A stretch of 64,000 nt of DNA from an uncultured Gammaproteobacteria bacterium (GTDB lineage Bacteria > Pseudomonadota > Gammaproteobacteria > Steroidobacterales > Foliamicaceae), in contig OX639965.1 in assembly GCA_951828235.1 (NCBI GenBank), positions 2,894,129 to 2,958,128 of the forward strand. The letters run 5' to 3'. Shown in pieces: positions 4,480 to 57,224 of this stretch (position 1 is its first letter; every line of letters begins with the position of its first letter). A program made the translations under genes and the position numbers. Under the pieces are notes generated by a model, which was not told the DNA's origin, searched no databases, and worked only from the letters and a program-made list of their open reading frames with translations.

Positions 4480-5021
4480 GGCGTATTGCCCTCAAGCACC
4501 GGCAGGAACACCTCCGCGAATACGGCGCCGTCGAGCGGGCCCACGTGCCGATACAGCACGATGCCGTCGGCGTCGATCAGAAAGGTTTCCGGCGCCCCGT
4601 AGACACCCCAGTCGATTCCCGCGCGGCCGTCGGCATCCACGGCGATGATCCGGTAGGGATTGCCGCGCAGTTGCAGCCATTCCAGGGCGTCGGAGTAGCC
4701 GTCCTTCCAGTTCAGTCCGTACAGCGGAGCGCCGGCGCGCCCCAGCGCCATGAGGAACTCGTGTTCGACCAGACAGCCGGAACACCAGCTTGCCCAAACG
4801 TTCAGCATCCAGGGACCTTCCTCTACGTCCTGCAACGCAAAGGTGGCGTTCGGGTCCAGCAGCTCCGGCAGCGAGAACTCCGGCGCCGGACGCCCGACAA
4901 GCGGCGACGGCACCAGGCTGGGGTCGCGCCCCAGGCTGACGGCGAAGAAATACACCATCACCAGCAGGACCGCGCATGGCAGCAGCAGAAGCCAGCGTAT
5001 CCGCTTGCGTTCCCCGCTCAC
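4476..5021 (-). CDS. ccmG: Periplasmic thioredoxin-like CcmG/DsbE
   Basis: CcmG is a membrane-anchored thioredoxin fold that passes reducing power to apocytochrome c. The 181-aa product has one N-terminal membrane helix (about residues 9-28), then VGRPAPEFSLP. The active site WASWCSGC has cysteines C80 and C83, and a cis-proline loop GAPETFLID follows. The dipeptide between the cysteines is Ser-Gly, without the proline common in CcmG (for example CPTC). The GTG start overlaps the ccmF stop codon (GTGA). The family call is secure from fold motifs and position. Confidence 0.93.
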   Translation of the reverse strand: MSGERKRIRWLLLLPCAVLLVMVYFFAVSLGRDPSLVPSPLVGRPAPEFSLPELLDPNATFALQDVEEGPWMLNVWASWCSGCLVEHEFLMALGRAGAPLYGLNWKDGYSDALEWLQLRGNPYRIIAVDADGRAGIDWGVYGAPETFLIDADGIVLYRHVGPLDGAVFAEVFLPVLEGNTP

Positions 5022-6949
5022 GGCTCATCTCTCCCGGGTGCGGCCGGCCGGTAGCGCCGATCCGAGATCGCCAGCAGTCCGCCCAGACCCATGATCAGGG
5101 CCCCAAGCCAGATAAACCGCACCAGCGGCTTGACCTGCACGCGAACGCTCCAGGCCCCCTCGCCGATCGGCTCACCGAGCGCGACAAACAGGTCATGGCG
5201 CCATCCCGCGTCGATTCCCGCTTCGGTCATCGGGCTCTGCTGCACTTCATACACGCGTTTTTGCGGATAGAGCGTGGTGACCGGCCGGCCATCGCGCGAA
5301 ACTCGTACGATGCCCTGCGCGGCCCGGTAGTTAGGGCCCTGGACGTCCTCGATCCGATCAAGCTGGAATTCGTATCCGGACACTTCAAGGCTTTCGCCCA
5401 GGGCCAGGCTACGGTCGGTCTCCACTCCCCAGGCGGAAACCACGACGATGCCCAGCGTCGTAACGCCCAGCCCGCAATGCGCCACCTGCATGCCCCAGGT
5501 CGAACGCCGTGGCATTGGACCGCGCCTGAGCAGCCAGGCAACCGGGTCGCGCAGCGCCGAGGCAATGACCCATACGGCGATGAGTATCCCGATGCCTGTC
5601 AGTATTCCCGCAAATCCGTAAGCCGCGACCGTGAGGACGATTCCTGCAAGAACCGCAACGGCGGCGGGTACCCTTAGCTTGCGCCCCCAGGCGGCGGTAT
5701 CGGTCGCCTTCCAGGAAGCGTGCATGCCCGCGCCCACCACCAGCAACAGCGGCAGCATGGGGAGAATGAAGACCAGGTTGAAATACGGCGGTCCCACCGA
5801 GATCTTGCCCATGTCCAGCGCGTCCAGCGCCAGCGGGTAGAGCGTGCCGAACAGCACCAGTACCGTGGCGGCGCTGAGCAGGACCGTGTTGACCAGCAGC
5901 GCGGACTCGCGTGAAACCAGCTTGAACCCGGTCTGCGGATTGGTGGCTGCGTTCCTGAACGCGTACAGCAGCAGCGCGCCACCCATCACGATCGCCAGGA
6001 ACACCAGAATGAAAAGCCCGCGCGCCGGGTCGCTGGCGAAGGCATGCACCGACACGAGCACGCCGGAGCGGACCAGGAAGGTGCCGAGCAGGCTCAGACC
6101 GAAGGCGGCGATCGCCAGCAGCAGCGTCGTGTTGCCGAAAAGTCCGCGGCGCTCGGTTACCGCCAGCGTATGTATCAGCGCTGTCCCGGCCAGCCACGGC
6201 ATGAACGAGGCATTCTCCACCGGGTCCCAAAACCACCATCCGCCCCAGCCAAGCTCGTAATACGCCCACCAGCTCCCCAGGGCGATGCCTACCGTGAGGA
6301 ACATCCAGGCCGCTGTGGTCCACGGGCGCGTCCAGCGCGCCCAGCGCCGATCCAGCCGCCCGCTCAGCAGTGCGGCAATCGCGAAAGCGAAGGGCACGGC
6401 AAGCCCCACGTAGCCCATGTACAGCAACGGGGGGTGTATCGCCAGGGCCGGATCCTGCAGCAGCGGGTTGAGGTCGGCGCCGTCTGCCGCCGCCGGAAAG
6501 AGCCTCATGAACGGGTTGGAAGTAAGCAGGATAAACAGCAGAAAGCCGATGCTTACCAGCCCCAGCACGCCGAGGACCCGTGCTCTCAGCACCTGCGGCA
6601 GCGTGCGGCTCGCCAACGCCACGGCCGCCGTCCAGGCACTCAGGATGAGTTGCCAGAGGACCAGCGAACCTTCGTGGGCGCCCCATATCGCCGCGAAGCG
6701 GTACATGGCCGGCAGCTTCAGGTTCGAGTGCAGGGCCACGTATTGGACGCTGAAGTCGTGACGGAAGAAGCTGACCGCCAGCATGGCGAACGCCAGGGCG
6801 GTAAACGCAAGCATCCCCAGGGCGCAGGGCCGGGCCACGTCCATCCAGCGGGCGTTGCCCGCATGCGCCCCGGCCAGCGGGAACACGGCCAGCGCTATCG
6901 CCAGGCACAAGGCGAGCGCCAGGCTGATCTGGCCGATTTCAGGAACCAT
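5018..6949 (-). CDS. ccmF: Haem lyase subunit CcmF
   Basis: CcmF is the large membrane protein that attaches haem to apocytochrome c together with CcmH and CcmI. The roughly 643-aa protein has many hydrophobic helices and the diagnostic tryptophan-rich motif WGGWWFWDPVENASFMPWL, which belongs to the haem-handling WWD family. The ATG at 6949 gives the usual N terminus MVPEIGQISLALAL; a GTG two codons upstream (6955) is the alternative. A 184-base gap to ccmE holds a long palindromic repeat, the largest spacing inside the ccm cluster apart from the insertion sequence. Confidence 0.96.
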   Translation of the reverse strand: MVPEIGQISLALALCLAIALAVFPLAGAHAGNARWMDVARPCALGMLAFTALAFAMLAVSFFRHDFSVQYVALHSNLKLPAMYRFAAIWGAHEGSLVLWQLILSAWTAAVALASRTLPQVLRARVLGVLGLVSIGFLLFILLTSNPFMRLFPAAADGADLNPLLQDPALAIHPPLLYMGYVGLAVPFAFAIAALLSGRLDRRWARWTRPWTTAAWMFLTVGIALGSWWAYYELGWGGWWFWDPVENASFMPWLAGTALIHTLAVTERRGLFGNTTLLLAIAAFGLSLLGTFLVRSGVLVSVHAFASDPARGLFILVFLAIVMGGALLLYAFRNAATNPQTGFKLVSRESALLVNTVLLSAATVLVLFGTLYPLALDALDMGKISVGPPYFNLVFILPMLPLLLVVGAGMHASWKATDTAAWGRKLRVPAAVAVLAGIVLTVAAYGFAGILTGIGILIAVWVIASALRDPVAWLLRRGPMPRRSTWGMQVAHCGLGVTTLGIVVVSAWGVETDRSLALGESLEVSGYEFQLDRIEDVQGPNYRAAQGIVRVSRDGRPVTTLYPQKRVYEVQQSPMTEAGIDAGWRHDLFVALGEPIGEGAWSVRVQVKPLVRFIWLGALIMGLGGLLAISDRRYRPAAPGRDEP

Positions 6950-6987
6950 GGGCACAGCCTTTCCGGGGAGCGCCTATGCGCTGGCGA

Positions 6988-7097
6988 GCCGGGCATCTTG
7001 CCGGCTCCTTCCGGGAGTTTGTGAGCCAGGGATGGCGGAACAAAGCTCCATGGATGGATTCATGCGGCTCCCGGAAGGAGCCGGCAAGATGCCCGGC
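6988..7097. repeat. Long palindromic repeat, copy 1
   Basis: The arms 6988-7017 and 7068-7097 are a perfect 30-bp inverted repeat around a 50-base loop, lying between ccmE and ccmF. A second copy lies at 57064-57196. The two share the inner 11 bp of the stem (CCTTCCGGGAG and its complement) and most of the loop (including ACAAAGCTCCATGGATGG). The outer 19 bp of each arm are unrelated between copies yet self-complementary within each copy. No gene is seen here. See findings. Confidence 0.85.
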
Positions 7098-7133
7098 GAA
7101 CATCGTAAGTTGTGTTCTATGCAAGGGAGGGCG

Positions 7134-7580
7134 TCAGGGGAGGGAAGCGTCCGGGGGGTGTCCCCGTTCTTCCAGCATCTCCGCGACTTCCGGCGGCATG
7201 TAGTTCTCGTCGTGGCGGGCGAGGACTTCGTCGGCCTGGAACAGGCCGTCCGCGCCCACCGCACCGTGGGCCACCACGCCCTGCCCTTCGCGGAACAGGT
7301 CCGGCAGGACGCCGGCGTAGGCCACGGTAATGGTGCGATCCAGGTCGGTCACGTCGAAACGCACTTCCAGCGAACCGGGCGTGCGACGCACGCTGCCGCG
7401 CTCAACCAGGCCGCCAACGCGCAGGCGCCTGCCTTCAGGCGCCTCGCCCGCGGCAATCTGGGTTGGCGTATAAAAATAAAGCATGTTCTGCTCGAAAGCG
7501 GTCAGCACAAGCGCCGTCGCCGCCACCAGGCAAACAAGCCCGCTGGTCATCGCCACCATCCGCCGCCGGCGCGGAGTCAT
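7134..7580 (-). CDS. ccmE: Haem chaperone CcmE
   Basis: CcmE covalently carries haem in the periplasm from the CcmABCD complex to CcmF. The 148-aa protein has an N-terminal membrane anchor (about residues 8-28) and a beta-barrel OB fold with RLRVGGLVERGSV. The haem-binding site is ARHDENYMPP, with haem-linking His123 and Tyr127. This is the bacterial HXXXY type. Its ATG overlaps the ccmD stop codon by four bases. Confidence 0.96.
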   Translation of the reverse strand: MTPRRRRMVAMTSGLVCLVAATALVLTAFEQNMLYFYTPTQIAAGEAPEGRRLRVGGLVERGSVRRTPGSLEVRFDVTDLDRTITVAYAGVLPDLFREGQGVVAHGAVGADGLFQADEVLARHDENYMPPEVAEMLEERGHPPDASLP

Positions 7581-56998: not shown

Positions 56999-57063
56999 TC
57001 TGAGCGGCGCCGAGTCTAGCAGTAACGCCGCTTCCGGTTCAATAGATGCACCATACGGCCGCG

Positions 57064-57196
57064 CGCTGGCGCTGACGCACAGGCCTTCCGGGAGTTTGTG
57101 AGCCAGTGGGCGCCGATGACCCGGCGCTCACAGCGGAACAAAGCTCCATGGATGGATTCATGCGTCTCCCGGAAGGCCGGTGCGTCAGCGCCAGCG
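57064..57196. repeat. Long palindromic repeat, copy 2
   Basis: The arms 57064-57094 and 57166-57196 are a 31-bp inverted repeat with one mismatch around a 71-base loop. The inner 11 bp of the stem and most of the loop match copy 1 at 6988-7097. The outer 20 bp of each arm are different from copy 1 but complementary to each other. The loop has about 21 extra bases that contain a further small stem (GTGAGC with GCTCAC). It lies between the tRNA pair and the alginate operon. Confidence 0.85.
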
Positions 57197-57224
57197 GAGT
57201 TTACTGGCTTGTTGCATCGGCGAA

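Follow-up and report, generated by a model that had tools for sequence, protein, structure and literature searches.

A dispersed hairpin repeat family in Gammaproteobacteria with a constrained, TwoAYGGAY-like head and a stem whose arms change in step

Two hairpins in a 64,000-nt stretch of a gammaproteobacterial genome (hereafter the window) belong to a dispersed family of short repeats, in which a constrained head sits on a stem whose two arms change together, pair by pair, at approximately the neutral rate. Our preferred explanation, to which we assign a probability of roughly 60%, is a mobile-type repeat with a TwoAYGGAY-like head, whose stem of about 30 bp is kept palindromic by copying from arm to arm and whose head is held by selection. 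The observations behind it concern family membership, copy number, presence and absence between species, covariation, the rate and spectrum of arm changes, and strand-biased mismatches. Under this explanation, repeats would be gained and lost between close species, and the head on the outer stem would be a pair of ANGGAY hairpins, which are sites of CsrA/RsmA type. During DNA replication, template switching or hairpin correction would carry a mutation over from one arm to the other, and selection, acting most probably on the folded strand that carries the GGA loops, would keep the head. With such copying, each neutral mutation would soon appear as a compensated pair, and the stem would stay a near-perfect palindrome.

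Two hairpins in the window and their family

A repeat search of the window delimited both hairpins. Copy 1 (6988-7097) has a 30-bp outer stem, in which the 3' arm (7068-7097) is the exact complement of the 5' arm (6988-7017; 30 of 30 pairs), around a 50-nt loop (7018-7067). Copy 2 (57064-57196) has 31-nt arms (57064-57094 and 57166-57196) with 30 of 31 positions paired and a 71-nt loop. All these parts are given on the plus strand, which is the strand with the GGA loops (the GGA strand). In the alignment, the loop of copy 1 forms the head with two small hairpins: hairpin 1, GCC-AGGGAT-GGC (7025-7036), whose ANGGAY hexaloop is a putative CsrA-type site, and hairpin 2, TCC-ATGGAT-GGA (7047-7058), with an ANGGAY hexaloop on a stem supported by covariation. 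Probable tandem G-A pairs join 7023-7024 with 7038-7039. In the sequence of copy 2, hairpin 2 reads the same (57145-57156), and a nested hairpin, GTGGGCGCC-GATGACCC-GGCGCTCAC (57106-57131), stands where hairpin 1 otherwise has its AGGGAT loop. The two copies agree in their inner stem and in most of the loop, copy 2 differing by this 26-nt nested hairpin, a variant that also occurs in L014, L016, L017 and L019-L021.

The initial annotation had described two long hairpins with a common inner stem and loop and with self-complementary outer arms, and the pairing counts bear this out. It had also pointed to a peptide phrase, HESIHGALFR, on the minus strand; the phrase can be read in both copies, as a mere by-product of identical DNA that no gene supports. 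A covariance model built from 61 copies, with copy 1 in the training set and copy 2 outside it, recovered copy 1 at E = 5.7e-27 (6991-7094) and copy 2 at E = 4.1e-21 (57068-57192), so both hairpins are far beyond chance.

The window's own genome (G000) is one contig of 3.11 Mb. A BLAST search of it with the core of copy 1 gave 45 matches at 30 loci, or about 27 loci after pieces were joined, and at every strong locus the sequence folds into a long stem that carries the same head. The repeat is thus a multi-copy family, as had been proposed; neither constant outer arms nor a restriction to two copies was found. Across the nine genomes of the genus (G000-G008), the covariance model gave 28 to at least 51 matches per genome, rough counts that include some opposite-strand matches of strong copies; one genome that is 66% complete had 30. 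At E<=1e-4, matches occurred in 18 of 78 genomes of the order, including all nine of the genus, with fewer copies in some genomes of other families.

Most of these copies were found by their pairing. We also searched for exact matches to a 19-base loop motif, which is blind to the arms and thus provides a sample independent of pairing. Among the matches listed, the same hairpins appeared in Marinobacter, Pseudoxanthomonas and gammaproteobacterial MAGs, and nearly all listed non-coding matches had stems of 18-32 bp with 0-3 mismatches, which is the same picture. The family is also sporadic beyond Marinobacter and Pseudoxanthomonas. Phage and plasmid collections yielded no phage match and one weak match to a Halomonas replicon, and no named equivalent of the family was found in the open-access literature.

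Two other repeats were seen in passing. A second, smaller hairpin family has 23-bp arms differing from copy to copy, a conserved loop of about 51 nt (aaggcgcgtcccgccgggaatgg...ggggcgcaacgcc) and the flanks GCATCA and CCTTCGGGAGCG; its copies lie at L142:5898-5995, L142:6003-6099 and L153:7326-7423 (G000 positions 2800339, 2800444 and 3081767) and, in other genomes, at G001:C51:52366 and G005:C5:176125. The other is an element of 166 bp bounded by perfect 19-bp terminal inverted repeats (CTAGCAGCCCGTGGCAGAA); its two copies have opposite orientations (G000:C1:2863012-2863177, L145, and 2885204-2885369, L146), and it looks like a MITE.

Homology and paired change of the arms

The outer arms had been called unrelated between copies. 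This holds for the window pair alone, in which the outer columns agree at 8 of 20 positions; across the family, the arms are homologous in register. Copy 1 and L043 (the same locus as L002) match at 24 of 30 arm columns, with all six differences compensated and one difference in the loop, and copy 2 and L204 match at 26 of 31 (five differ). When 186 distinct copies were aligned from the inner end, they showed a common arm start (mostly GCC or CGC), a common inner segment CTTCCGGGAG and a C/T-rich 5' side. Start, end and register of the arms are the same from locus to locus, and the copies form graded series, so that the outer arms are homologous across the family and drift by paired changes. 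The idea that arms are made from scratch at each landing was dropped after the comparison of nearest neighbours and orthologs.

Covariation was analyzed in a gapless alignment of 61 copies. Changes on both sides were found in 25 of 27 outer pairs, and 98.8% of outer cells were paired, compared with 44-51% overall when partners were slid. None of 500 shuffles reached the observed covariation score. The covariation of outer stems within copies, suspected from two copies, is therefore strong. G-U pairs were rare in the outer stem (10 of 1,647 cells).

To relate arm change to the surrounding DNA, we used 12 pairs of orthologous copies with matching 250-nt flanks, comprising 340 arm columns; this is a small set in which several pairs have a member in common, and the rates are given without correction. 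Differences on both sides were found in 32 columns (9.4%) and on one side in 8 (2.4%), against about 24% single-sided columns expected for independent arms changing at the flank rate. The flanks differed at 11.9% of sites and the loops at 3.3%. Transition-type changes made up 19 of 32 double changes at orthologs (59%) and 43 of 74 in nearest neighbours (58%), close to the baseline of flank substitutions (343 of 607, 56.5%), and there is no excess of G-U-compatible changes among the double changes. Two-step compensation under selection is expected to lag behind neutral change and to favour transitions with a G-U intermediate. Because double changes instead occur at about the flank rate and with the flank spectrum, and G-U is rare, one mutation copied into the other arm fits better. 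The simplest reading is apparently that one arm takes a single ordinary mutation and then serves as the template from which the other is rewritten. A Marinobacter site present in six species gives a striking example, in which the loop is identical at 51-53 of 53 positions and the flanks are 80-90% identical, yet a block in the middle of the arm is different in each species and still complementary.

Of the earlier suggestion that a copying mechanism makes new arms, the copying thus has evidence in double changes at about the flank rate, whereas the arms are not newly generated. We infer copying from the pattern of differences between copies, as distinct from a copying event caught directly, and rapid two-step compensation in large populations is a less likely alternative. 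Template switching during replication is the known process with this effect; it has been proposed as the source of instant compensatory changes in rRNA genes (PMC8794818), and it would be a suitable copier here. As in hairpins corrected by template switching (PMC8794818; quasipalindrome correction), instant compensatory changes would keep the stems perfect. That process was described for rRNA genes and Escherichia coli reporters, whereas here it would act in dispersed copies.

The head and its relation to TwoAYGGAY and CsrA

On the GGA strand, the two small hairpins have stems that covary (columns 36-45, 57-68 and 58-67) and ANGGAY loops that are fixed. In the 61-copy alignment, the pairs of hairpin 1 are kept in 100% of cases, its middle pair alternating among C-G, G-C and A-U, and hairpin 2 covaries at 57-68 (U-A or C-G) and 58-67 (C-G or A-U). 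Columns 33-34 and 48-49 are nearly invariant G and A, which we take as probable tandem G-A pairs. Hairpin 1 is without GGA in about a quarter of the G000 copies, and in some copies, of which copy 2 is one, its place is taken by a longer nested hairpin that lacks GGA.

This arrangement resembles TwoAYGGAY (Rfam RF01731), a predicted CsrA binder for which tandem GAs are mentioned and whose external stem is described as not well conserved (PMC4333381); Rfam places it in clan CL00106 together with CsrA-binding RNAs. Both have two AYGGAY-type hairpins on one strand inside an external stem. The repeat differs in that one loop is often AGGGAT, so that the motif is strictly ANGGAY, in its high copy number with gain and loss, and in its G+C-rich, hypervariable stem. 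The RF01731 model gave full-length alignments on the expected strand with both hairpins in eight of the nine genus genomes (G000-G006 and G008), and its alignment of L256 covers small hairpin 1. All scores were below threshold: the gathering cut-off of 43 bits was reached in none of 29 genomes, with a best score of 33.5 in the genus and 41.3 in G010, and no window copy was among the RF01731 matches at E<=5. The head may therefore work like, or descend from, TwoAYGGAY, and we do not file it as a member. The 41.3-bit match, in another family of the order (L294:1498-1624; G010:C155:8078-8228), has a 24-bp stem and a GCCATGGATGGC hairpin. Rfam matches to microRNAs were long-stem artefacts below cut-off.

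The head loops match the consensus RUACARGGAUGU obtained by CsrA SELEX (PMC7652899), though not in all copies. In the commonest class with two sites, the GGAs are 19-20 nt apart, within the reported bridging range of 10-63 nt, and the repeat, if not every copy, presents GGA in hexaloops of short hairpins paired at bridging distance. A csrA gene is present in G000 (G000:C1:1849569-1849727, E 2e-24) and in all eight congeners. CsrB, RsmY and RsmZ, which sequester CsrA/RsmA, likewise present pairs of short hairpins with GGA in the hexaloop; the repeat differs from them in having no promoter or terminator, only two sites per unit and a dispersed distribution, and its CsrA binding is putative. After removal of repeated cases, the rare mismatches, read on the GGA strand, comprised 33 G.T against 9 A.C and 30 purine-purine against 3 pyrimidine-pyrimidine. 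These are the types that a folded GGA strand tolerates, which supports folding of that strand, as RNA or as single-stranded DNA. The proposal of a structured RNA thus gains from the conserved head and the mismatch bias; the pairing of the stem alone is no proof of it, and the bias fits single-stranded DNA as well.

Occupancy of sites, mobility and competing explanations

Copy 1 is located within the ccmE-ccmF operon and is oriented antisense to both ccmF (5018-6955, minus strand; Pfam CcmF_C and Cytochrom_C_asm; ORF as listed, with the start probably at the ATG at 6949) and ccmE (7134-7580, minus strand; Pfam CcmE). The region 6950-7129 is absent from the orthologous gap of six congeners (G001, G002, G003, G006, G007 and G008), where about 17-24 bp without palindrome or arm sequence separate the genes; in this gap, G005 carries another hairpin and G004 shows a remnant. 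Copy 2 is flanked by a tRNA gene and a gene for an SDR dehydrogenase. Its region (approximately 57047-57221) is absent in G006, where the flanks are joined directly, and G005 has two other hairpins at the site. The same pattern of occupied and empty sites was seen elsewhere, and individual copies are not conserved between species. A site common to G005, G006 and G007 is empty in G003, indicating that losses occur too. The inserted stretch varies, and at some sites it stands in place of a few bases. At the sites of copies 1 and 2, and also at G003 281802/G005 40661, G006 267967/G005 182137 and G006 52764/G001 7245, one and the same gap was occupied by different family elements in different species; such gaps may be hot spots, places of replacement, or just the few that tolerate an insertion.

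Based on crude gene calls, 138 copies had callable neighbours, of which 60 lay between convergent genes, 69 between tandem genes and 9 between divergent genes, against a baseline, taken from the sampled stretches, in which convergent gaps make up about 24% of intergenic length and divergent gaps about 23%; the nearest gene end was a 3' end in 108 of the 138. The tandem copies (27 sense, 42 antisense) show no bias to the transcribed sense. This placement looks like avoidance of promoters; it does not point to the GGA strand as the transcribed sense. Each of the two window copies runs antisense to its neighbours, which, together with the missing sense bias, weakens a CsrA role borne by mRNA. One Marinobacter copy (L225:1467-1571) lies antisense and in frame inside the panE/apbA (ketopantoate reductase) coding region, which stays open in six species (orthologs L176, L197, L220, L249 and L254), and adds a segment like CEYVLVRSVPPSMAPQ.

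Occupation in one genome and emptiness in close relatives is the behaviour by which MITEs are recognized, and mobility would be the cause of gain. Like MITEs and the REP/BIME elements of RAYT systems, the repeat is short, intergenic, palindromic and multi-copy, with occupancy differing between close species. It differs in its stems of about 30 bp, in that no consistent target-site duplication or terminal repeat was found (the flank consensus is weak and differs between subfamilies), and in that no Y1 transposase (Y1_Tnp, PF01797) is present in G000 or its eight congeners. The RAYT-type transposase suggested earlier thus found no support in G000-G008, and a REP/RAYT element was rejected. No integron attC core boxes were seen by eye in the flanks. 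Rickettsia palindromic elements are presumably similar in that a palindromic repeat lies in frame inside a protein gene, as in the Marinobacter panE/apbA; most copies here are intergenic, and the likeness is one of placement.

One competing explanation is a purely MITE-like DNA element, in which a recombinase reads the single-stranded hairpin, the GGA loops are its recognition sites and RNA has no role. We regard this as possible at perhaps one chance in a handful or slightly better. Presence and absence between congeners, orientation regardless of genes, the open panE copy and strand-specific mismatches, which would also suit a single-stranded DNA substrate, agree with it, whereas the absence of a Y1 transposase from the genus does not, nor does the failure to find a consistent target duplication or terminal repeat, and the likeness to a predicted CsrA motif would be a coincidence. 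We favour CsrA over a recombinase as the putative reader of the head. Somewhat less likely is a classical functional RNA, the whole hairpin being a CsrA-binding sponge or UTR element whose pairing is selected through G-U intermediates. The paired ANGGAY hairpins of SELEX type at bridging distance, the sub-threshold TwoAYGGAY matches, the conserved loops and the mismatch bias would all be expected of it. The outer stem nearly without G-U is not, nor are double changes that are neither slower than the flanks nor richer in transitions, tandem sites without sense bias, and copies that are not conserved between species.

It is improbable that selection has spread the repeat as a bidirectional transcription terminator or as a protector of mRNA 3' ends. 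The excess of convergent neighbours and nearby 3' gene ends in the crude gene calls would suit it, but a bias to gene ends can be mere promoter avoidance, copy 1 lies inside an operon, and a T-run (at least 5 T in the first 9 nt after the stem) follows 0 of 173 copies on the GGA strand and 14 on the other; an intrinsic terminator was accordingly rejected. Least credible of all is insertion into existing palindromes, or the formation of arms by inverted copying of target DNA, which the initial annotation had entertained as landing in palindromes. Different arms at different sites suggest it at first sight, but in up to six congeners the empty sites are free of palindromes and of arm sequence, and the arms keep start, end and register across loci. 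For the sites examined it is refuted, and so are a palindrome-associated element (PATE) that would insert into existing palindromes and an inverted target duplication.

Base-pair covariation is the standard proof that an RNA structure is functional. Here almost every outer column covaries, yet the changes proceed at the flank rate and with the flank spectrum and hardly any G-U, which points to a process of DNA copying; the pairing of a stem alone is thus no proof of RNA function. If arm-to-arm copying is the true explanation, the family would be a natural test bed for the origin of compensatory changes, with many independent copies and orthologs, and a warning for RNA discovery based on covariation. 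More speculatively, and in our view doubtfully, a mobile hairpin whose stem is rewritten from arm to arm at the neutral rate could also carry a CsrA-binding head, tens of copies acting together on the CsrA pool. Our results show that a motif of CsrA type, similar to TwoAYGGAY, is carried by a dispersed repeat in several Gammaproteobacteria, and thereby make the predicted binding of CsrA testable in culturable Marinobacter.
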